From: Halobacteriovorax sp. | GTDB lineage: Bacteria; Bdellovibrionota; Bacteriovoracia; Bacteriovoracales; Bacteriovoracaceae | DNA length: 64,000 nucleotides | Direction: 5' to 3' | Assembly (NCBI GenBank): GCA_020048985.1 | Contig: JAIFLR010000024.1 | Span: 30,658 to 94,657 of the forward strand | Part shown: positions 51,817 through 60,278 of the stretch, piece by piece | How the letters are laid out: every line of letters begins with the position of its first letter | Position numbering within the stretch: position 1 is the stretch's first letter | Made by a program: the position numbers and the translations under genes | The notes under the pieces: model-generated | Database searches by the model: none | The model's input: only the letters and a program-made list of their open reading frames with translations | What the model was told of the DNA's origin: nothing

Positions 51817-52385
51817 TCGATTTTCTTTCCTCAATAGATCAAAAACTCTTTCTCATATTTAATTCATGGCATGCTGATTGGCTGAATCCTATTATGGTTT
51901 TATTCTCTGGGCAGCTTATTTGGCTTCCCTTTTTAATCCTTGTTTTTGGTATCGCTTTTAAAAAACTGGAGAGAAGAAGCTTCTTTCTTTTCATGTTGTT
52001 TTTAGTTCTGGCCTTGATAGCGTCTGATGTTACCTCATCCTACATTCTTAAAAATATCGTACAAAGATTACGGCCCTGCAAAATTCCTGAGCTAAAATCC
52101 TTAATCTTTAGCTTTGGCCAAAAATGCGGAGGTCGCTTTGGCTTTGTGTCTTCTCATGCGGCCAATTCTATTTGTGTGCTTATGTTTTCTACGATTGCTT
52201 TAAAGATCAAATCCAGGGCATTCCATTGTTTATGGCTGTTACCACTATTAGTAAGCTTCAGTCGCATCTACCTTGGCGTGCATTACCCAGGCGACATCTT
52301 GGGTGGAATTTTTGTAGGCTTAATGTGGGGAAGCCTAATGGCGATGATTTTTAGAAACCAAGGACTATGGGGCGAGTCGGCTTAG
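51813..52385 (+). CDS. PAP2-family lipid phosphatase
   Basis: A 190-residue membrane phosphatase. The three PAP2 motifs are KNIVQRLRP, SSHAAN (usually PSGH) and SRIYLGVHYPGD. There are about five membrane helices. The family dephosphorylates undecaprenyl pyrophosphate or other lipid phosphates. It is coupled to the polyprenol-mannose-synthase-like gene, so it may recycle the carrier lipid. The GTG start overlaps the upstream gene; its end overlaps pdxH convergently by 21 bases. Confidence 0.88.
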   Translation: MIDFLSSIDQKLFLIFNSWHADWLNPIMVLFSGQLIWLPFLILVFGIAFKKLERRSFFLFMLFLVLALIASDVTSSYILKNIVQRLRPCKIPELKSLIFSFGQKCGGRFGFVSSHAANSICVLMFSTIALKIKSRAFHCLWLLPLLVSFSRIYLGVHYPGDILGGIFVGLMWGSLMAMIFRNQGLWGESA

Positions 52386-53012
52386 GTGCCAGCCCTGTGA
52401 ATTCTTTTCGTAAATGATACGATCATGCATTCTGTTTTCCCGGCCTTGCCAAAATTCAAAATAAGTAGGGGTAATCGTATAGCCTCCCCAATGCTCAGGT
52501 CTTTTTATTTCAACCTCATTTGAGTACTTCTTATCTGCATCCTGAAAAAGTTTTTCTAACTCATGTCTTGAAGCCACTTTCTGGCTCTGAGGAGAAGCAA
52601 TGGCACCTATTTGGTTCCCTCGAGGTCTTTTCTGAAAATACTCGTCGGAAAATGCCGAATCAATTTTTTGAAGAGTTCCTTCAATTCTGATCTGGCGTTG
52701 TAGTGGCAGCCACAAGAATGTCATAGCGACATGGGAATTATTAGCTAGCTCCGCACCCTTGGCGCTATTGTAATTAGTATAAAATGCAAAATTTTCGTTA
52801 TGGATACCCTTTAGAAGGACAACTCTTGCCCGCGGCTGTCCATTTAGCACCGTAGATAGAACAAAAGCATTTGGCTCGTCACACTCTGCGGCTACGGCGT
52901 CCTTGAACCAGCTATCAAATTGTATGTCAGGGCGGGAGTTAGCGTCGCTTATGTCAAAAGAAGCGTTACGATAACTTCCTCTAAGATTTTCGAGGGTTTG
53001 ATTTATACTCAT
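52365..53012 (-). CDS. pdxH: Pyridoxamine 5'-phosphate oxidase
   Basis: FMN enzyme forming pyridoxal 5'-phosphate. Motifs are RARVVLLKGIHNENFAFYTNY, the substrate-site segment NSHVAMTFLWLPLQRQIRIEG, RPRGNQIGAIASPQS and the C-terminal PTYFEFWQGRENRMHDRI. At 215 residues it has exact family length. Confidence 0.96.
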   Translation of the reverse strand: MSINQTLENLRGSYRNASFDISDANSRPDIQFDSWFKDAVAAECDEPNAFVLSTVLNGQPRARVVLLKGIHNENFAFYTNYNSAKGAELANNSHVAMTFLWLPLQRQIRIEGTLQKIDSAFSDEYFQKRPRGNQIGAIASPQSQKVASRHELEKLFQDADKKYSNEVEIKRPEHWGGYTITPTYFEFWQGRENRMHDRIIYEKNSQGWHLSRLAP

Positions 53013-53035
53013 TAACAGATACTAGGCTTCCCATG

Positions 53036-53686
53036 TCATTCTGTCACCTGGTCACCGGTTAAAATAAAGATTTTAAAATTTTCTACTATTTTAAAGGCTC
53101 GCTCATTAGGGTCAGTCACTCCTGTAAAAAACTTATCTATCGCATTACCGGAGTCATCCAAAATGACGGTCTTAATACCTTGTAAGTTTTTAAGCTCAGT
53201 AGGGTCAGTGATTTCCTTCTCCATCTCATCAATCATTCTAACGATGAAAGCCTGTAGAGTTTTAAATAACATTTTTGAAATGATGATATTTGTCACTATA
53301 TTTTTCGTTTTTACGACACCAAGAAGTTTTGCATCACCCAACCCAACATCGTAAGCCGAAGATAAAGCAAACTTACTTAACCCGGCCAACACCTTCATAC
53401 AAAAAACGGTTTTTTGTTTTTGATCAGGAAGTTTATCCAATTCGGTTAAAAAATCTTTTGTGAAGATTTTAAATCCATCATTCACACGCATGGGAATTGC
53501 TCTTAATAAGAGAATTGTTCCCTGAAGTGATTCTTTGGCATCTGTTATAGATTCTTTGATATTAATTTTTTGAGCATTTGAAATAAAATCGGTCGCCGTT
53601 TTTTTTACATCTTCTTTTACCACATGAGAAATGATCCCTCGGGTTTTTGTTATAAGAACATGCTTCATTGACTCGGAAAGGTTCAT
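53036..53686 (-). CDS. Hypothetical helical protein, 216 aa
   Basis: I do not recognise this protein. It is predominantly helical, with no signal peptide or strong membrane helix, and ends with a segment that may bind a partner (DSGNAIDKFFTGVTDPNERAFKIVENFKIFIL). It follows two tiny membrane-peptide genes by 30 bases, all behind one sigma54-type promoter, so they probably form one operon. No catalytic motif seen. It lies 23 bases upstream of pdxH, on the same strand. Confidence 0.65.
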   Translation of the reverse strand: MNLSESMKHVLITKTRGIISHVVKEDVKKTATDFISNAQKINIKESITDAKESLQGTILLLRAIPMRVNDGFKIFTKDFLTELDKLPDQKQKTVFCMKVLAGLSKFALSSAYDVGLGDAKLLGVVKTKNIVTNIIISKMLFKTLQAFIVRMIDEMEKEITDPTELKNLQGIKTVILDDSGNAIDKFFTGVTDPNERAFKIVENFKIFILTGDQVTE

Positions 53687-53716
53687 GCTACAAGCTTACA
53701 CGAGTTGCTGAATGAC

Positions 53717-53806
53717 TTACAAGTGTCCGGCACCAACGTAGCTGATAATAGCTGTTATAATAAGCAGAAAATAGAGCTTCCTATGGATGGCTTTTTGTGA
53801 ATTCAT
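53717..53806 (-). CDS. Tiny single-helix membrane peptide, 29 aa
   Basis: The ATG at 53806 overlaps the stop of the 37-residue frame (TGATG), and TAA is at 53717-53719. The product has a basic N-terminus followed by one hydrophobic helix (LYFLLIITAIISYVGAG). It is too short to identify by family. Coupling to the upstream peptide gene, and the membrane-helix pattern in both, support translation. It could be a subunit stabiliser or regulator of a membrane complex, by analogy with peptides such as KdpF or CydX; that is inference. Confidence 0.5.
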   Translation of the reverse strand: MNSQKAIHRKLYFLLIITAIISYVGAGHL

Positions 53807-53919
53807 CAGCAATTTGCCTTTTTATCCAAATCAATATTGGACTCTAGAATATAAACATATGCACTCATGACAACCGTTATGAGGCCTAAGATAAAAACAG
53901 ATTGGGTCGCGCGGAACAT
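53806..53919 (-). CDS. Tiny single-helix membrane peptide, 37 aa
   Basis: ATG at 53919 with a good ribosome-binding site (AAAGGA, five bases upstream) and TGA ending at 53806. The product has one membrane helix (VFILGLITVVMSAYVYIL) and a charged C-terminal tail (ESNIDLDKKANC). It lies about 36 bases after the predicted start of a sigma54-type promoter. It overlaps the next tiny gene by one base. Not recognised by family. Confidence 0.58.
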   Translation of the reverse strand: MFRATQSVFILGLITVVMSAYVYILESNIDLDKKANC

Positions 53920-53966
53920 CAGAATCCTTTTGCAGTTAAGATTGGCTCAACATTGTGTCGTTAAGT

Positions 53967-53981
53967 GCAGGGAAGGTGCCA
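53967..53981 (-). promoter_or_regulatory. Sigma54-type promoter for the peptide operon
   Basis: Minus strand TTGGCACC-TTCC-CTGCA: GG (complement of 53979-53980), 10 bases, GC (complement of 53967-53968). This matches the consensus TGGCACG-N4-TTGCW at nearly every strong position. The predicted start is near 53955, 36 bases before the first small ATG. Confidence 0.75.
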
Positions 53982-54087
53982 AATACCGCTCATTATATTT
54001 CAGGTATTTATTGCCTTGTGAGGCTTGTTTTTGGGTAATTTTGCCTCTATATTTCGGCAAAAGTACCCTTCAAAGGATTTTAGCCCC

Positions 54088-55494
54088 GTGAAGATCAAAA
54101 ATAATTCAACCATTGCTCTGATTGATGACGACTTAGACCTTCTGGATTTGCTCGCCAGTTTTTTCAGGCAAAGAGGCTATAAAGTTTTAGCTTTCAGTAA
54201 TGCTGAAGAAGCTCTGATTGACTTCGAGAATAAGCGAGCTGAAGCCGATGTGGTTATTTCTGATTTAAAACTTCCCGTCATGTCGGGGATGGAATTCATC
54301 AAGCGCATAAAAAAATCCCATCCAAACCTTCCTATAATACTTATGACCGCTGAGGGTAGTGTTGAGACAGCTGTTGAAGCAATTGAAACTGGTGCCTACG
54401 ATTTTGTTTTAAAACCGTTGCACATACCCCAGCTTCTTATTTCGGTTCAACGTGCTCTACACCTCAATGAAGTGCAGACAGAAAACAAAAATCTCAAAAG
54501 TCTTTTTCATGGCCAGGACTTTATGGGTCTTAAGGGTGTTATTGGAAAAAGCCAAGGTTTCAAAAAAGCGATGGAACTTGCAAAAAGAGTTTCATCCAGC
54601 CAGGCGAACATTCTTATCAGTGGAGAAAGTGGTTCAGGTAAAGAAGTTATCGCCAAAGCTGTCCACGAGCTAGGCGACAAAAAAGACGGACCATTCATTG
54701 CTATTAACTGCTCGGCTATACCAGAAAATTTACTGGAGTCAGAATTGTTTGGTCATGCCAAGGGTGCTTTTACTGGTGCCAATGATAAAAAAATTGGTCT
54801 CTTTGAAGAGGCAAACAAAGGCACCCTTTTTCTTGATGAGATTGGTGACCTAACTCTGTCACTACAGGCTAAACTTTTGCGTGTACTGCAAGAGAGAAAA
54901 GTAAAAAGGATCGGGGAGAACCAATACCGGGATATTTCTGCCCGTATCATTTGTGCTACCCATAAGGATCTTAGAAAAGAGGTTACAGAGGGAAGATTTA
55001 GAGAAGATTTATACTTCCGCCTGAATGTGATTCCTATATACATGCCACCACTTCGTGAAAGAAAAGATGATATTCTGCCACTTAGCGAATACTTTCTTAA
55101 AAAGTTTGCGCTTATGAACAACATGCCTGTGAAGGGATTTTCTAAAGAAGCGATCCAAAAGCTAGAAGCCCACACATGGAAAGGGAATGTTCGAGAACTT
55201 GAAAATGCTATAGAGAGAGCGGTGGTTCTCTCTAGTTCAGAAATTCTTCAGGTTGATGACCTACCGACTGAAGATGTTTTCAGGCAAGAAACCCCATCTT
55301 CAACCTCAGATGAAGCGACTAATGATTTATTAGCTTTTAAACATAATGAGCCTGTTACTCTTGATGAGCTGTCGAAAAAATACATCCAATATACTTTTGA
55401 CAAGAACGGTGGCGCCAAAGAGCAGACCGCAAAAGATCTAGGTATAGATCGTAAGACCCTTTACAGAAAATTAAAGGAAATGAATTTAAATTAG
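54088..55494 (+). CDS. NtrC-family sigma54-dependent response regulator
   Basis: A 468-residue bacterial enhancer-binding protein. It has a receiver domain (acidic pocket around residues 13-15, phosphoacceptor Asp59, Thr87, Lys109), then an AAA+ domain with Walker A GESGSGKE and the sigma54-contact motif GAFTGA intact, then a Fis-type helix-turn-helix (AKDLGIDRKTLYRKLKEM). I choose the GTG at 54088 (AAGGA ten bases upstream); a longer frame opens at 54025. It is convergent with the Hpt gene and surrounded by sigma54-type promoters, its probable targets. Confidence 0.93.
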   Translation: MKIKNNSTIALIDDDLDLLDLLASFFRQRGYKVLAFSNAEEALIDFENKRAEADVVISDLKLPVMSGMEFIKRIKKSHPNLPIILMTAEGSVETAVEAIETGAYDFVLKPLHIPQLLISVQRALHLNEVQTENKNLKSLFHGQDFMGLKGVIGKSQGFKKAMELAKRVSSSQANILISGESGSGKEVIAKAVHELGDKKDGPFIAINCSAIPENLLESELFGHAKGAFTGANDKKIGLFEEANKGTLFLDEIGDLTLSLQAKLLRVLQERKVKRIGENQYRDISARIICATHKDLRKEVTEGRFREDLYFRLNVIPIYMPPLRERKDDILPLSEYFLKKFALMNNMPVKGFSKEAIQKLEAHTWKGNVRELENAIERAVVLSSSEILQVDDLPTEDVFRQETPSSTSDEATNDLLAFKHNEPVTLDELSKKYIQYTFDKNGGAKEQTAKDLGIDRKTLYRKLKEMNLN

Positions 55495-55754
55495 TGCTGA
55501 ATGGTCAACCAGTGCGAGAACTCTTTCAGTGATTGATTTAATGTTTCAAGATCGTGGGTCTGCGCTGCAAGCTCAAGGTTTGCCCCAATAAGAGAAAGCT
55601 CAGGATATCCAAATGTGCTGCCATTGCCTTTGATTTGGTGGCCTATTTTTTCGATTTCAAAGAACTGATTGTCCGCAAGTGAGTGTAGACACTCTTCCAG
55701 GTCACGCCTTCTGTTATCTAAGTACCTTCCCATAATGTCGTTTGGAACTTCCAT
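55491..55754 (-). CDS. Hpt (histidine phosphotransfer) protein
   Basis: A stand-alone 87-89 residue Hpt domain. The phosphoacceptor is in IGHQIKGNGSTFG (His41 when counted from the upstream ATG at 55760). The family forms a four-helix bundle that passes phosphate between receivers. I prefer the ATG at 55754, with GAGG six bases upstream; the ATG at 55760 is the alternative. It converges with the NtrC-type regulator (4-base overlap), so it may feed that regulator or its kinase. Confidence 0.88.
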   Translation of the reverse strand: MEVPNDIMGRYLDNRRRDLEECLHSLADNQFFEIEKIGHQIKGNGSTFGYPELSLIGANLELAAQTHDLETLNQSLKEFSHWLTIQH

Positions 55755-55873
55755 TTTCATCCTCTAAGGCGAGATATTACACTTAAAATAATTAATGATC
55801 CACGACTAAGCTAGGCCAGGGTATTATTCCCCACGGCAAAGCAATAAACCGTTAATATTTCGTAAATTCCTGG

Positions 55874-55889
55874 TGGCACTATTCGTGCA
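55874..55889 (+). promoter_or_regulatory. Sigma54-type promoter upstream of the methyltransferase leader
   Basis: TGGCACT-ATTC-GTGCA: GG at 55875-55876, 10 bases, GC at 55887-55888. It is close to the consensus. The predicted start is near 55900, giving a 189-base leader to the ATG at 56089. It lies in a 330-base stretch (55761-56088) without any gene. Confidence 0.7.
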
Positions 55890-55911
55890 TAATCCATCAT
55901 TACTTACTGGC

Positions 55912-55937
55912 ATCATTGGTCAAAATTGACCAATGAT
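55912..55937. repeat. Perfect 26-nt palindrome
   Basis: Arms ATCATTGGTCAA (55912-55923) and TTGACCAATGAT (55926-55937) around AA, with no mismatch. It lies about 12 bases downstream of the predicted sigma54 start. It could be an operator for a dimeric regulator or the first stem-loop of the leader RNA. A second, shorter palindrome (GACAAG-AA-CTTGTC, 55948-55961) follows. Confidence 0.7.
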
Positions 55938-55961
55938 AATTCAAAAAGACAAGAACTTGTC

Positions 55962-56072
55962 GAATACCTGCACGCTACGGCCAGTATTTCCTGCCTCTTT
56001 TCCCACCTTATTTCGCCTCTCCCTTTCCAATTTACCACCCTGTTAAATGCAGGGTGGTCATCCCTCAGGGAT
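55962..56072 (+). promoter_or_regulatory. CU-rich structured leader before the methyltransferase gene
   Basis: After the palindromes the leader has a pyrimidine-rich tract (about 55989-56038) with several Shine-Dalgarno-complementary units (CCTC, CCACCTT, CCTCTCCC). Then comes a stem-loop CCACCCTG / CAGGGTGG (56035-56042 and 56050-56057, 7-base loop) and a small hairpin ATCCCT/AGGGAT (56060-56072). The larger hairpin lacks a T-run, so it is not a normal terminator. The layout suggests a regulatory leader or an sRNA with CU-rich seed regions. Confidence 0.45.
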
Positions 56073-56088
56073 ATGCTAGATTACGCCC

Positions 56089-56910
56089 ATGAACCTTATA
56101 CCTGAAATCAAACCCGGCCAATCCCTGGAACTCCTGAAAGAACTTCACATCCTTACTCGAGATGGAAAAATAAACCAGGACAGTCGACGAAAACTCAAAC
56201 AAGTTTATCATCTATATCAATTTATCGAGCCCTTATTAAAAGATGTTCTGGCAAAAGAAAAAGAACTTACATTGGTTGACCACGGTGCTGGAAAATCTTA
56301 TCTCGGCTTCATCATTTATGACTTGTTTTTCAAGGGTTTAAACGAAGGAAGAATTTTTGGCATCGAGACCAGAGACGAGCTAGTCAAAAAGTCTCAAGAC
56401 TTAGCTAAAAGATTGTCCTTCCCGAGAATGACTTTTCTCAACCTATCAGTAGAAGAATCTATCACTTCTCCTTTAATTCCTAATAACGTTGAAGTTGTCA
56501 CTGCCCTCCATGCCTGCAATACCGCCACAGATGACGCTATTGATTTTGGCTTAAAACGAAATGCTTCATATTTTGTCTTGGTTCCCTGTTGTCAGGCCGA
56601 AGTTGCTGCCGAGTTCAGAAGAACGAAAGGCAAAATGATCGGGAAGAATTTCATGACTGAAATGTGGAGACACCCTATTCATACCCGTGAGTTTGGCAGC
56701 CATATTACAAACGTACTCAGATGCTTAAGACTTGAGGCTCACGGATACCAGGTTACGGTTACAGAATTAGTGGGCTGGGAGCATTCAATGAAGAACGAGC
56801 TTATTGTCGCGCAATACAAGGATCTTCCCCGCAAGAATGCGCAGGATAAACTTAATGCCCTGATTGAAGAACTAGGGTTATCTGAGCTCAAAACCAGATT
56901 TGCTGAATAG
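56089..56910 (+). CDS. Putative SAM-dependent methyltransferase
   Basis: A 273-residue protein with a class I methyltransferase pattern: motif I as LVDHGAGKSYLGFIIY, an acidic residue after strand 2 (GIETRDELV), VVTALHACNTATDDAI and VPCCQAEVA. It resembles the METTL25/RRNAD-like group, whose members are thought to act on RNA or protein. The substrate is unknown. It is expressed from a long leader behind a sigma54-type promoter. It ends 12 bases before the convergent small gene. Confidence 0.75.
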   Translation: MNLIPEIKPGQSLELLKELHILTRDGKINQDSRRKLKQVYHLYQFIEPLLKDVLAKEKELTLVDHGAGKSYLGFIIYDLFFKGLNEGRIFGIETRDELVKKSQDLAKRLSFPRMTFLNLSVEESITSPLIPNNVEVVTALHACNTATDDAIDFGLKRNASYFVLVPCCQAEVAAEFRRTKGKMIGKNFMTEMWRHPIHTREFGSHITNVLRCLRLEAHGYQVTVTELVGWEHSMKNELIVAQYKDLPRKNAQDKLNALIEELGLSELKTRFAE

Positions 56911-56922
56911 AAGAAACTCACG

Positions 56923-57123
56923 TTAATTGGAACTGTATTTTACGTCACTATTTTTATTAATACTGTAATCAGTGTATTTATAATGGCAATCCATCCTGCC
57001 CTTAAGCATGCGGCATGCCCTTTCTTGCTTTTGTTCCATATGACTTGACCCGAATGGTTTCAAAATCAAGCCCAGAAAAAACAACGCCACCAGCGTAATA
57101 GAATAATGTAACTTGATCTCCAC
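56923..57123 (-). CDS. Small membrane-anchored protein, 66 aa
   Basis: GTG start at 57123, one base after the DUF1328 stop codon, so coupled to it. One N-terminal hydrophobic helix (ITLVALFFLGLILKPF) is followed by a charged tail with two Cys (RACRMLKGRMDCHYKY). Not recognised. It is in the same sigma54-type transcript as the DUF1328 gene. Confidence 0.5.
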   Translation of the reverse strand: MEIKLHYSITLVALFFLGLILKPFGSSHMEQKQERACRMLKGRMDCHYKYTDYSINKNSDVKYSSN

Positions 57124-57124
57124 T

Positions 57125-57307
57125 CTAGTGCCTATTAATCATTCTGCGGCCACTAACCATACTTGCAATAAAGCTGATAACGGCAAGAATGAGGAACACA
57201 AATAGCAAAGTCTTACCAATTTCCAATGACAATCCACCTACGCCGTTAGCTCCTAAAAGTATTGCCACCAAACCTAAAACAAAAAATGCAATTGCAGCCC
57301 TTAACAT
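57125..57307 (-). CDS. DUF1328 (YtjA-like) small membrane protein
   Basis: A 60-residue protein with two hydrophobic helices (AAIAFFVLGLVAILLGANGVGGLS and LLFVFLILAVISFIASMV), the DUF1328 pattern. Function is unknown; homologues are often stress-induced. Start is the ATG at 57307, with GGGAG upstream; the frame is open to 57337. It is behind a sigma54-type promoter and followed by the 66-residue gene. Confidence 0.85.
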   Translation of the reverse strand: MLRAAIAFFVLGLVAILLGANGVGGLSLEIGKTLLFVFLILAVISFIASMVSGRRMINRH

Positions 57308-57352
57308 AGTCGACTCCCTGTTGTGCGAGATCACCACTCACATACCTTCTAT

Positions 57353-57368
57353 GGCAGGAATGGTGCCA
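57353..57368 (-). promoter_or_regulatory. Sigma54-type promoter of the DUF1328 gene
   Basis: Minus strand TTGGCACC-ATTC-CTGCC: GG (complement of 57366-57367), 10 bases, GC (complement of 57354-57355). The predicted start is near 57342, 35 bases before the ATG. It resembles the promoter at 53967 almost base for base. Confidence 0.75.
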
Positions 57369-57441
57369 ATTGATTTAAATAGGAAAAATAACAGGTTAGA
57401 TTTTTAAATGTGACAACAGGGGGCAAACTTCCTCACCAAAA

Positions 57442-57672
57442 TTACTCATTCGTTATGCTTTTTCGTCTCAAACCGACTAACCAGCGCTTGAGTAAGTCAT
57501 AACCAAGTGCAAGATCATTTCTCAATTTTAGAACATCCTTTCTAATTATCTTGGATTGGTGTGAGAGAGATTTATTCTCAGATGTTTTATGAGGAAATGG
57601 CTTATTTCCTCGGGCGAAGACCTTAATAGAATGGGCCCTGCGGGTATTGTTTATTAGATTAGTTGTTGCCAT
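57442..57672 (-). CDS. Small basic protein, 76 aa
   Basis: I do not recognise this protein. It is rich in Lys and Arg, with no membrane helix (for example KIIRKDVLKLRNDLALGYDLLKRWLVGLRRK), and could bind nucleic acid or membranes. The ribosome-binding site GGAGGTGAG is very strong, which supports it as a real gene. A sigma54-type promoter lies about 35 bases upstream. It is divergent from csbD. Confidence 0.6.
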   Translation of the reverse strand: MATTNLINNTRRAHSIKVFARGNKPFPHKTSENKSLSHQSKIIRKDVLKLRNDLALGYDLLKRWLVGLRRKSITNE

Positions 57673-57705
57673 AACTCACCTCCATCTTGCCACTCCTTTC
57701 AAAAT

Positions 57706-57719
57706 GCAAACTCTAGACC
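57706..57719 (-). promoter_or_regulatory. Sigma54-type promoter of the 76-aa gene
   Basis: Minus strand CTGG-TCTAGAGT-TTGCAT: GG (complement of 57718-57719), 10 bases, GC (complement of 57706-57707). The -12 half TTGCAT is perfect; the -24 half keeps CTGG but not CACG. The predicted start is near 57694. Confidence 0.55.
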
Positions 57720-57730
57720 AGAAGAAACTT

Positions 57731-57746
57731 TGGCATGACGTATGCA
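57731..57746 (+). promoter_or_regulatory. Sigma54-type promoter of csbD
   Basis: TTGGCATG-ACGT-ATGCA: GG at 57732-57733, 10 bases, GC at 57744-57745. The predicted start is near 57756, 18 bases before the csbD ATG. It lies back to back with the divergent promoter of the 76-residue gene. Confidence 0.7.
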
Positions 57747-57773
57747 AATATCCTTCTTTAAGAGGAGAAACAT

Positions 57774-58061
57774 ATGCTTACCCAAGAACAAATCCAAGGA
57801 AAATGGGAAGAGATCAAGGGGGGAATAAGGAATGTCTGGGGAGAGATTTCAGAAGAGGAGCTTGATCAAATTAAGGGGAATATCCTATCTGTTCCCGCAC
57901 TGGTTGCTAAAAAATATAACGAAACAAATGAATCAATTTTAAAAAAACTCAATACATTAATGAATAGCTTTGACAATGAAACAGACAAAAGTCTTAAGCT
58001 CAATGATGGGGAGAGCTCCTACCAACGAAGTCCGATAGATAATAATCCTTTATTTTCTTAA
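57774..58061 (+). CDS. CsbD-family stress protein
   Basis: A 95-residue protein with the CsbD domain at the N-terminus (QEQIQGKWEEIKGGIRNVWGEISEEELDQIKGN). CsbD-like proteins are abundant under general stress; the mechanism is unknown. It is longer than the usual 60-70 residues because of a Ser/Asn-rich tail. Ribosome-binding site AGAGGAG. The SET gene follows after 22 bases. Confidence 0.88.
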   Translation: MLTQEQIQGKWEEIKGGIRNVWGEISEEELDQIKGNILSVPALVAKKYNETNESILKKLNTLMNSFDNETDKSLKLNDGESSYQRSPIDNNPLFS

Positions 58062-58083
58062 AATGACCATTTAAGATTATTCC

Positions 58084-58671
58084 ATGCTTCATCCAGACAC
58101 CGAATTAAAGTATGTTTCCCCAGAAATTGGCTATGGCATTTTTGCAACAGCTCTTATCCCCAATGGCACTATTACCTGGGTCAAAGATGAACTTGATCGA
58201 ATTGTTCCTAAAGAAGATCTCGAAAAACTGAATTCGGCTAACCTGGAAAATCTGCTCAAATATTCGTATCGAAATTATCGCGGGGACTATGTTTTTTGCT
58301 GGGACCTTACCCGGTACGTCAATCACAGCTATCGACCTAACTCGATACTAACTCCACTAGGCTTTGAAATTGCCATTAGAGAAATTCATCCAGGTGAGGA
58401 AGTGACCAATGATTATGGAACTCTGAATATTATTGAATCATTTGAATGCGCCAATGGGCCAAGTCACGAGCGAGATCTCGTTTGCCCTGATGATTTAAGT
58501 CGGCACTATTCCACATGGGATGCACAGATTAATTCTTCATTTCCTTTAATTACGAAAAATCTGCAGCCCTTAAACAAATTTTTAACGACACATCAGACGA
58601 AGGAAATTGAACAGATTCTTAGTGGGAAAATGGTCATGCCTTCAGTGCTAAATAATCTTTACAAAAAATAA
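58084..58671 (+). CDS. SET-domain protein (putative lysine methyltransferase)
   Basis: A 195-residue protein with a SET domain: GYGIFATALIPNGT near the N-terminus, RYVNHSYRPNS (the NHS motif) and GEEVTNDYG (the catalytic Tyr region). SET proteins transfer methyl groups from SAM to lysine. No pre-SET domain is present. Bacterial SET proteins are uncommon and of mostly unknown target. It probably shares the csbD transcript. The end overlaps the convergent membrane-protein gene by 13 bases. Confidence 0.85.
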   Translation: MLHPDTELKYVSPEIGYGIFATALIPNGTITWVKDELDRIVPKEDLEKLNSANLENLLKYSYRNYRGDYVFCWDLTRYVNHSYRPNSILTPLGFEIAIREIHPGEEVTNDYGTLNIIESFECANGPSHERDLVCPDDLSRHYSTWDAQINSSFPLITKNLQPLNKFLTTHQTKEIEQILSGKMVMPSVLNNLYKK

Positions 58672-60278
58672 TCAAGCCTAAAAATTCTTTTTCTGGCGAC
58701 AATCATAAAAAAAATGCCAATAAAAAAATAAACCAGTGAAACCAGCCAATACAGGGGATCATACTTCAAGGTTATGGCGCCTGTTTTTGTTGGATGAATT
58801 TCAATTAATCCATTCATAGAATTTGTCTTACAACCTTCAAGGCAGGTCCATCCACCATTCCAGTTATAATTAAAAATAAAACTTTCCTCCAACGGCTTAT
58901 CTGTGATGATGTCTACGGATTCGTTAGTAAAAACAGCTTTTGTTCCATGATCCAGATTAAAAAAGAGATTTGAATAGGGTCGGATTTTTTTGGATTTTGC
59001 CGGTTCATAGCACTCAAATGATAGGAGCCTTGAAGAATAGACCTCTGGCTTTGGCATGGATTTCACGTATTGATCAATTGGCAACGAAGTCTGAGCAAGC
59101 TTAAATTGATCTTTTGCAACTGTATGCTTAAAGGCGTGGTAACTTGCATAACCACCACAGGCCACAAGCTCAATGATTGCCAGATGCAACAGCCATTTTC
59201 TCCACTGTTTAGAGCTATAACCTTTTATGATTAATACCAACATCATGAGATAGAATAAAATTAAGACCCTGCTTTGGACATGCATGTGATTAATGAAGGG
59301 AATACTTTTAATGATCGTCCATGGATTGAATACCCCACCAAGACCTAGGGCAATCCAGCCATAAAAAAAGAATTGAAAGATGATTTTTATATTGTTTTTC
59401 ATCTTCGGTATCAGGGAAATGAATACTACCGTAAGTCCTAATCCCAGATAATGGCCATATTCATGAAAAAAGAATTTCTGCCCCTTCATGGTAAGATAGT
59501 TACTTTGCCTGATATCAAAAAATGCCTGGATAATATTGGCGAAACTGTAGTTAGCTGCTTCGGTCACAGGTGACCTGTCATGGTGAACATAAAGCACTGG
59601 TAAAATCTTGGCCAGCAATAGAAAACTGATACCAATACATATGATGACCAATACTTTTAAATTTCTTCTGTCTGTGATTAATCTATAGAGACCTGGGTAA
59701 TTTGTGTTAAACACAACCAAAAAAATTGAAAAGTAGAGGGGATATAAGCCCCCGTCCAGAAACATTCCTGCCAAAATCAATAACAGCCACCATAAATTGG
59801 AAAGCGTATTTAACTTAGTCGACAGGTATAGGACAAATGGTAAAAAATAAAAGGATCTATAAACAATATGTCCTTCCGCAAAATGCAAAAAGAAAAATGG
59901 TGAGAGATTAAACAAAGCCGAGATCAGATATCCCTCGTATTTTGCCTCCATTCCTTCACATAACTTCAACATTCCCCAGTATCCGAAGAGACTACAAATT
60001 AACAGTGACAATAAATTGGCAATATAAGGATTTAAGAAAAGATTTAAAACCACTAAGGGTGAATAAATCCAATTCTGCGGATTAGAAAGAATATCAACTC
60101 CTCCGCATATCCATGGATCCAAAAGAGGCATCCTGAAATCCCGTAAAGCATCACCAATGACCAAGCCTAGTGAGTTAAAGTACCTCCAGTCTCCTGCTGG
60201 TGAGAGCGGCAGTTTGAATATATAAATTGAGTATGGAGCTATCGATAATACATAAAACAAGATGAGAATTTTATTCAT
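58659..60278 (-). CDS. Large polytopic membrane protein, possible glycosyltransferase
   Basis: A membrane protein of about 539 residues (frame open to 60317) with about eleven membrane segments and a periplasmic domain near the C-terminus (about residues 415-510), then a last helix and basic tail. The first loop has LLDPWICGGVDILSNPQNWIYSP, resembling YfhO/GT-C-type enzymes that use lipid-linked sugars. I cannot name the substrate. Convergent with the SET gene. The start was chosen by spacing from GGA; the ATG at 60287 is an alternative. Confidence 0.65.
   Translation of the reverse strand: MNKILILFYVLSIAPYSIYIFKLPLSPAGDWRYFNSLGLVIGDALRDFRMPLLDPWICGGVDILSNPQNWIYSPLVVLNLFLNPYIANLLSLLICSLFGYWGMLKLCEGMEAKYEGYLISALFNLSPFFFLHFAEGHIVYRSFYFLPFVLYLSTKLNTLSNLWWLLLILAGMFLDGGLYPLYFSIFLVVFNTNYPGLYRLITDRRNLKVLVIICIGISFLLLAKILPVLYVHHDRSPVTEAANYSFANIIQAFFDIRQSNYLTMKGQKFFFHEYGHYLGLGLTVVFISLIPKMKNNIKIIFQFFFYGWIALGLGGVFNPWTIIKSIPFINHMHVQSRVLILFYLMMLVLIIKGYSSKQWRKWLLHLAIIELVACGGYASYHAFKHTVAKDQFKLAQTSLPIDQYVKSMPKPEVYSSRLLSFECYEPAKSKKIRPYSNLFFNLDHGTKAVFTNESVDIITDKPLEESFIFNYNWNGGWTCLEGCKTNSMNGLIEIHPTKTGAITLKYDPLYWLVSLVYFFIGIFFMIVARKRIFRLDYFL

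Follow-up and report, generated by a model that had tools for sequence, protein, structure and literature searches.

In the ZraR-zraP and PspF-psp systems, the gene of the activator lies beside or divergent from the sigma54 promoter that it serves, and small stress proteins are the output. CsbD and DUF1328 proteins are small stress proteins of wide distribution, the functions of which have remained obscure. CsbD/YjbJ and DUF1328/YtjA are reported to be sigmaS-controlled small proteins in Salmonella (PMC5437024), csbD and ecnAB are EcfG targets in Sphingopyxis (PMC7083833), LuxO/SypG and sigma54 control the Qrr small RNAs of Vibrionaceae (PMC10162802), and Bdellovibrio bacteriovorus has eight attack-phase-specific noncoding RNAs, one of them with a c-di-GMP riboswitch (PMC3627812). 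Here we describe a gene cluster of Halobacteriovorax sp., located at positions 53967-57746 of a 64-kb stretch of contig JAIFLR010000024.1 (the window), in which predicted sigma54 promoters surround the gene of an NtrC-type activator. The window is part of a 3.25-Mb assembly of 138 contigs that is 91.6% complete, so absences in the assembly are provisional. Among the matches listed in a literature search of open-licence papers, none describes this regulon or its RNA.

We estimate at roughly 75% the probability that the activator binds TGGNANWWTNCCCCA operators and, through five sigma54 promoters, switches on the DUF1328, CsbD-like and p76 proteins and a self-terminated RNA of about 160 nucleotides (nt). 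The initial annotation had proposed a local sigma54 regulon around this activator, and the proposal is upheld by recurrence of sites in the same gene slots of relatives (against 0/96 in controls), by a shared operator motif and by an association of the genes that survives rearrangement in a sister clade. Its core stands as drawn, while the predicted RNA behind the second promoter and the probable extension of the regulon beyond the interval had been overlooked. The sites, their conservation, the enrichment of operators across loci and the covariation of the RNA are borne out at the level of sequence.

Sigma54 sites were scored with a hand-made consensus matrix. Over the 64 kb, ranks 1-4 all fall in the cluster and its fifth site (TGGTCTAGAGTTTGCA) ranks 8. 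All five sites were located where the initial annotation had placed them (Table 1); they are TGGCAC-N5-TTGC-like, with GG and GC 10 bases apart, and the genome encodes rpoN (PF04552, 210.8 bits). The GG-N10-GC rule by which they had been recognized was dropped as a criterion: with 227 matches in the window, of which the interval accounts for 16, it could not have supported the claim. A search for TGGCAC-N5-TTGC with 3 mismatches was of no use (381 matches vs 365 expected). The exact pattern TGGCAY-N6-TGC occurs four times in the window, every time inside the cluster, and 56 times in the assembly, vs 15 for the reversed pattern. Given 56 matches assembly-wide, the probability of finding four in 3.8 kb is ∼7e-7, or ∼6e-4 when corrected for 860 such windows.

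The same sites recur in relatives. Within the genome collection, the genes closest to that of the activator come from Bacteriovoracaceae/Bacteriovorax records and three records labelled "Proteobacteria bacterium"; at E ≤ 1e-150, a match was present in 24 of the 115 sampled genomes of the family, in 3 of 48 genera. A scan of the contigs of this collection (genome_contigs) yielded 80 loci that were kept, 27 of which (L032-L057 and L062) are close orthologues with 62-88% identity. For each gene found in the window and these 27 loci, the best sigma54 score within 170 bases upstream was taken. Scores of at least 12 were obtained for 15/20 slots upstream of csbD, 14/25 upstream of DUF1328, 11/15 upstream of p76, and 15 of the 28 loci on the strand divergent from the activator. 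Control slots in the same loci gave none (activator 0/28, PdxH 0/21, p216 0/19, Hpt 0/19, SET 0/9; pooled, 0/96 at ≥12 and 2/96 at ≥10). The methyltransferase slot was mixed, with 4/20 at ≥12, since the intervening RNA places the sigma54 site more than 170 bases away in most cases. The distance between the −24 boxes of the p76 and csbD promoters was measured in 12 loci; it is 4-17 bp in 10 of them, 30 in L034 and 72 in L056. The third site (57352-57368) is nearly palindromic, as it is in L038 and L056, which accounts for a weaker sigma54-like match on its opposite strand.

The activator contains REC, Sigma54_activat and HTH_8 domains according to Pfam, which also recognizes the neighboring Hpt protein, and both identifications by the initial annotation thus stand. 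In 25 of the 26 loci examined, the region upstream of the activator gene carries the motif [TA]GGC[AG]-N5-[ACT]CCC[AGT]. The training sites were collected by regular expressions from this region in the 26 loci, with L043 unmatched and L053 and L054 left out; upstream of the activator in these three loci, no operator scores above 5.7 (L053 5.6, L054 2.4). The matrix, built from the 25 sites alone, was scanned over the window and the 27 loci with the training slot masked. Operator hits of at least 9, located 30-130 bases upstream of other sigma54 sites (≥13), numbered 21 vs 1.6 expected, a 13-fold enrichment. The Poisson p of 9e-17 is a ranking value, as the loci are related; with column-permuted matrices, 0/200 reached 21 (mean 1.05, largest 9). 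These results support an operator motif shared by several promoters across loci. In the window, the strongest candidate occupies the spacer that separates the −35-like from the −10-like box in the predicted promoter of the activator gene itself, a promoter with counterparts in L035 and other loci (TTGTCA - 17 - TATATT), and this suggests that the activator regulates its own gene. Sites 1 and 2 have a fairly strong predicted link to the activator; that of sites 3 to 5 is indirect.

Table 1. Features of the cluster and of the sister-clade RNA (positions in the window unless a locus is named; aa, amino acids; ORF, open reading frame)
Feature	Position	Strand	Remarks
ORF, 31 aa	53717..53812	-	Hydrophobic stretch; second of the "peptide operon"; no Pfam match
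ORF, 37 aa	53806..53919	-	Probable decayed N-terminal half of a second DUF1328 gene, from alignment to relatives
Sigma54 site 1	53966..53981	-	TGGCACCTTCCCTGCA; −24 T at 53981; rank 1 of 64 kb; divergent from activator gene
Predicted sigma70 promoter of activator gene	54026..54054	+	TTGTTT - 17 bp - TATATT; putative, read from sequence
Operator candidate	54032..54046	-	AGGCAAAATTACCCA; score 21.8; inside spacer of the activator's predicted promoter
Inverted operator partner	54055..54069	+	CGGCAAAAGTACCCT; score 12.6
NtrC-type enhancer-binding protein, 468 aa	54088..55494	+	Receiver Asp59, AAA+ with GAFTGA, Fis-type helix-turn-helix; Pfam and residues read
Hpt protein, 89 aa	55491..55760	-	HQIKG motif (His41); PF01627 29.0 bits, cut-off 24.6
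Operator candidate	55819..55833	+	GGGTATTATTCCCCA; score 11.5; begins 55 bp upstream of site 2
Sigma54 site 2	55874..55889	+	TGGCACTATTCGTGCA; −24 T at 55874; rank 3; likely promoter of structured RNA; same slot in relatives
Predicted small RNA, start to terminator	55899..56062	+	Putative start, placed from the −12 element
RNA core	55904..55987	+	Outer stem, inner hairpin with GAAU/AAAU loop, unpaired ACCUGCAC; covariation; model R1
Terminator-like hairpin	56034..56058	+	ACCACCCUG/CAGGGUGGU; downstream stretch weakly U-rich here
Extended −10-like element	56074..56082	+	TGCTAGATT; 6 nt before methyltransferase ATG; putative promoter element
Methyltransf_32 protein	56089..56910	+	Pfam; probably outside the sigma54 regulon
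p66	56923..57123	-	Small protein; hydrophobic N-terminal segment, CxMLKGRMDC motif; downstream of DUF1328; present in relatives
DUF1328 small membrane protein (YtjA family)	57125..57307	-	60 aa from ATG; PF07043 32.3 bits, cut-off 27
Sigma54 site 3	57353..57368	-	TGGCACCATTCCTGCC; −24 T at 57368; rank 4; DUF1328 slot
Weak operator-like sequence upstream of DUF1328	57419..57433	-	AGGAAGTTTGCCCCC; score 5.1; L033 counterpart 10.4
p76	57442..57672	-	Orphan family; no Pfam or NCBIfam match
Sigma54 site 4	57705..57720	-	TGGTCTAGAGTTTGCA; −24 T at 57720; rank 8; likely promoter of p76
Sigma54 site 5	57731..57746	+	TGGCATGACGTATGCA; −24 T at 57731; rank 2; likely csbD promoter; back to back, 10 bp from site 4
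Divergent CsbD-like protein, 95 aa	57774..58061	+	PF05532 30.3 bits, below cut-off 40
Sister-clade RNA	L045:12472-12594	-	
Sister-clade RNA	L046:11575-11697		
Sister-clade RNA	L047:11623-11745		
Sister-clade RNA	L048:6802-6931		
Sister-clade RNA	L049:3418-3540		
Sister-clade RNA	L051:9738-9861		
Sister-clade RNA	L062:13419-13544		

The proteins behind the promoters had been described as small membrane or stress proteins. This holds for the DUF1328 protein, the sole PF07043 match found in the assembly; p76 is unmatched in Pfam and, judged by eye, lacks an obvious membrane segment, and the CsbD assignment stays below its cut-off. The "tiny peptide operon" assigned to site 1 is probably a decaying DUF1328 copy instead. 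Its 37-residue ORF shares the MxRAxxxxFxxGL start with DUF1328-like relatives in an alignment, though it matches no Pfam family, PF07043 included, and in four relatives (L035, L038, L052 and L055) the same slot holds a 57-residue DUF1328-like ORF (in L035, 25.1 bits with PF07043, cut-off 27). Shorter forms are found in L032 (40 aa, a relative), L041 (36 aa) and L042 (28 aa), and L033 and L034 have no DUF1328-like ORF of at least 22 residues there. Elsewhere the slot is occupied by an outer-membrane-like protein (L050), an 88-residue Cys-pair protein (L057) or, in the sister clade, the DUF1328 gene itself. For the 31-residue ORF, tblastn at E 0.01 gave no hit in the 27 related loci. A SET-domain gene (58084-58671, +) directly follows csbD; it is probably outside the csbD operon, since in L032 it lies ∼900 bases further away.

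Since the targets include small membrane and secreted-looking proteins, and the activator scores with the ZraR and PspF models of NCBIfam (all below cut-offs), the set might represent a Psp- or Zra-type envelope-stress or metal response rather than a programme resembling general stress. We regard this as unlikely, albeit deserving of attention: no PspA-, ZraP- or metal-transporter-like gene was noticed by Pfam among the targets, 10 cluster proteins being covered, and CsbD and DUF1328 proteins are under sigmaS control in Salmonella (PMC5437024).

The second promoter had been taken as that of a methyltransferase leader. Our analysis revises this assignment, as the site most likely feeds a predicted RNA of ∼160 nt, with covarying stems and a terminator-like hairpin, and not the methyltransferase. 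The RNA strand of 55899-56070 folds far better than its shuffles (z −5.9), and the architecture is kept at the same place in relatives, with CCUGC unpaired in all 14 aligned sequences. Across these 14 sequences, 84.8% of cells are paired and 13/16 pairs have changed on both sides; on four of five measures 0/500 shuffles scored as high (33/500 on the number of pair types), and pairing drops to ≤39% when the partner is slid by one to three columns. With two further sequences found by the model (16 in total), the values are 85.8% paired and 13/16 two-sided, with 0/500 shuffles on all five measures. In the terminator stem, 94.6% of cells are paired and 6/10 pairs have changed on both sides. The covariance model, R1, gave 15 matches in the window and the 27 loci, namely the 14 training sequences and L037, whose copy is degenerate (22.4 bits, E 0.056) and located at the right place. 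Over 58 whole genomes, searched with stricter filters and some of them incomplete, there were 17 matches, all among the 26 genomes of the same genus; 9 of these 26 and all 32 genomes outside the genus had none. Ten genomes of two other activator-carrying genera gave two marginal matches (E 0.12 and 0.137), which were not counted. The new matches in L125 and L126 both adjoin activator and methyltransferase genes. The L125 RNA follows a sigma54 site scoring 11.6, and that of L126 a sigma54-like TGGTCTAAGAAATGCT scoring 7.2, which itself lies behind an operator-like TGACAAAAATCCCCG scoring 12.1. A match in G023 (E 0.036) is probably due to chance, with no site above 10.5 and none of the cluster's genes in the locus. 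No Rfam family matched the RNA at gathering score within 52000-60000 of the window.

Alternatively, the RNA might belong to the methyltransferase mRNA as its 5′ leader and function as an attenuator or riboswitch, with the terminator gating read-through from the sigma54 promoter. All loci with a confidently recognized copy have it immediately before the methyltransferase gene, which would fit such a role, as would the riboswitch-like order of structure, terminator and gene. However, a TGnTAnnnT element lies 5-9 nt before the methyltransferase start in 13/20 loci vs 2/54 window ORFs, and the gene is kept where R1 finds no RNA (L039, L042, L043, L053 and L054). In this group, L043 and L053 carry the TGnTAnnnT element, L042 has it before an upstream ATG, and L039 and L054 lack it; by eye, L043 and L053 do show a similar hairpin and CCUGC. 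No alternative antiterminator pairing was noticed, no systematic search for one having been made. On balance a leader appears improbable, and we favor a free RNA: the methyltransferase is unlikely to be a sigma54 target because a terminator-like hairpin and a −10-like element intervene, and it is probably a separately transcribed, nearly leaderless gene. The RNA itself would act in trans through its unpaired ACCUGCAC stretch. The window contains the seed complement, GTGCAGGT, four times, including the copy in the RNA itself, and a further overlap, of the shorter GTGCAGG, is with sigma54 site 1.

The association of these genes persists in a sister clade (L045-L049, L051 and L062), which keeps DUF1328, CsbD-like, p76-like and Hpt genes and the operators in another order. 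There, DUF1328 is divergent from the activator, Hpt lies downstream, and the CsbD-like gene is found further on in most loci and faces the p76-like gene where seen. The p76 profile (in which the L042 row is a wrong ORF) matches the sister-clade protein at the same divergent place with a probability of 90.7%. Over 420 bases, L049 and L051 do not differ from loci of another activator-carrying genus. In all seven loci, the 3′ end of the sigma54-preceded transcript of the CsbD-like slot contains an element of 123-130 nt with three stems, in which CUGCAAACACAACAUCA is invariant and, except for its first two bases, unpaired. Its persistence in L048, where the stop codon lies inside it, and in two loci without a recognizable CsbD part (L049 and L051) makes the element look constrained as RNA. 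Its pairing (93.1%, with 6/25 pairs changed on both sides) is weaker evidence than that for the first RNA, and helix 3, having no two-sided change, draws its support from sequence conservation alone. The corresponding model, R2, gave seven strong matches, all training sequences, and two weak ones (L179, E 0.41; L053, E 0.58); in the loci searched from the clade of the window, nothing was better than E 0.58. Rfam gave no match at gathering score for the element of L045 and L062.

Other sigma54 sites were seen in the sister-clade loci. TGGCCC-type sites precede similar proteins at L045:12322 (-), L047:11433 (-) and L062:13307 (-); the first 130 residues of the L045 protein are Hemerythrin by Pfam, and those of L047 and L062 were judged by eye. 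On the plus strand, sites at L045:15035, L046:14203, L048:9155, L051:11778 and L062:16011 precede secreted-looking ORFs of 44-92 residues, which in L046, L048 and L051 are followed by a gene that is LysR-like by eye.

The regulon probably extends to a second csbD gene and to the rearranged sister clade with its different structured RNA. The assembly contains two CsbD matches and one DUF1328 match, and both csbD genes and the DUF1328 gene carry sigma54 sites. The site of the second csbD, TGGCCTTAGATATGCA, scores 11.3 and faces, 22 bases off, a sigma54 site before an 88-residue secreted-looking Cys-pair protein, a layout that repeats the back-to-back arrangement of p76 and csbD (L149/L027, G000:C38 ∼66800-67350). 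A similar Cys-pair motif is present in p66 of the window and in proteins of L035, L057 and L062. In three genera, 27/32 CsbD genes have a site of at least 10 within 110 bases of a possible start, vs 2/52 window ORFs, 17/228 ORFs in the relatives' loci and 39/529 in distant loci. This sample comprised 30 genes fetched of 39 matches in 23 genomes searched (20 with one), plus the two from the assembly, and overlaps in part with the genes of the slot test.

Fifty-two of the 56 exact matches in the assembly lie outside the window, and the scan for operators and neighboring ORFs covered every one of them. Near a FliA-like sigma gene (C2:8020-8661), a span of 2.8 kb contains three sigma54 sites (L002 and L004; G000:C2:9352, 10336 and 12133), and two of them precede similar leaders with tiny hydrophobic peptides containing LAFQRxSYKK.

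Several observations weigh against a single dedicated activator or lessen the force of the counts. Many of the loci come from metagenome-assembled genomes, and their relatedness means that the counts do not represent independent observations. In L045, L046, L047, L049 and L051, a single site is counted for both the DUF1328 and the divergent slot (five sites in all), as DUF1328 itself is the divergent gene there. The divergent slot has no site of at least 10 in L036, L037, L039, L040, L043, L044, L053, L054, L056 and L062. Control ORFs within the CsbD loci reach a score of 10 in 12/49 cases, probably because they include neighbors and overlaps of sigma54 genes. The second csbD, chosen for CsbD and not for an operator, does not stand out by its operator hit of 8.5, as hits of 7.4 to 9.7 were obtained at six other sigma54 sites and exceed it at three of these. 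The seed complement is hardly enriched in the assembly (69 vs 59 for the reversed pattern). The DUF1328, p76 and csbD promoters, three of the five in the window, have no operator of at least 9 nearby (weak ones score 5.1 to 7.1, the best 6.7 and 7.1), so control by the activator at these promoters depends on the relatives, on proximity or on looping. Finally, the assembly encodes eleven strong sigma54-activator domains, this one included, and another could therefore serve some promoters. On these last two grounds, the sites could be genuine sigma54 promoters that answer to another activator or to several, the neighboring NtrC-type gene not being their dedicated regulator. We judge this quite improbable, as other sigma54 sites across the loci show an upstream enrichment of the motif that lies beside this activator, and as the activator, DUF1328, CsbD-like and p76-like genes travel together through rearrangement. 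That the cluster consists of chance sigma54-like strings in an AT-rich genome, as the abundance of GG-N10-GC might suggest, has a negligible probability in view of ranks 1-4 in 64 kb, the conservation of slots and the genome-wide excess over the control pattern.

Under control by the neighboring activator, a stress signal would reach its Asp59, probably by phosphorelay through the neighboring Hpt protein from a kinase encoded elsewhere; the signal, the phosphorylation and the binding of the activator are what we infer here. The active hexamer would occupy operators ∼30-130 bases (the range tested) upstream of the −24 boxes and remodel the RNA polymerase-sigma54 complex. With the strongest operator overlapping the predicted sigma70 promoter of the activator gene, the level of the activator may be self-adjusted. 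Simultaneous occupancy of the back-to-back p76 and csbD promoters is probably impossible, and the methyltransferase would be transcribed separately. A compact sigma54 circuit of this kind, with one activator and a recognizable operator, might allow the whole set to be switched by one gene. If confirmed, the two RNA families tied to this circuit would be regulatory RNAs for which the promoter, the activator and a candidate seed can all be put to the test, in a genome in which no Hfq was found.

The LuxO/SypG-Qrr systems resemble this locus in that an NtrC-family activator drives, or here would drive, a sigma54-dependent small RNA (PMC10162802). In contrast to LuxO, the activator is no LuxO equivalog (393.2 bits vs a cut-off of 800), the 91.6%-complete assembly has 0 matches to Hfq (TIGR02383), and the RNA, unlike Qrr, belongs to no matching Rfam family and shares its regulon with small stress proteins. 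With no LuxO-level score and no Hfq match, the regulon is not a member of the LuxO-Qrr group. The noncoding RNAs of Bdellovibrio are likewise small RNAs of a predatory relative, compared with the RNA described here through Rfam alone; their attack-phase control is tied to FliA, however, and the text of PMC3627812 mentions sigma54 only within the title of a reference. With ZraR and PspF, the cluster shares the placement of the activator gene and an output of small stress proteins; it differs in that no homologous targets were noticed, in having more promoters per cluster, and in the RNA among its outputs.

With the sigmaS and EcfG general stress responses, as described in the reports cited above, it shares CsbD and DUF1328 among its likely targets (the CsbD of the window below the Pfam cut-off), whereas the promoters here are of the sigma54 type and need an activator. 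The sigma70-family proteins of the assembly comprise RpoD, two FliA/WhiG-like proteins (one below cut-off), one ECF factor and one weak hit. All but the weak hit were scanned, and these four stay below the RpoS and SigB cut-offs, with 25 families shown and no dedicated EcfG model among them. Tentatively, in these bacteria of a predatory lineage, in which no RpoS or SigB was recognized, sigma54 and a dedicated activator may have taken over the small-protein arm of the general stress response, and each clade may have added its own structured RNA, a free sigma54 small RNA in one and an RNA from the 3′ end of the csbD-like message in the other, with the similar stretch CCUGCACA/CUGCAAACACAA as a trans seed working without Hfq. 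In summary, the cluster is most simply explained as a sigma54 regulon that performs the small-protein tasks of a general stress response, which suggests that a stress regulon can swap its sigma factor yet retain part of its content.

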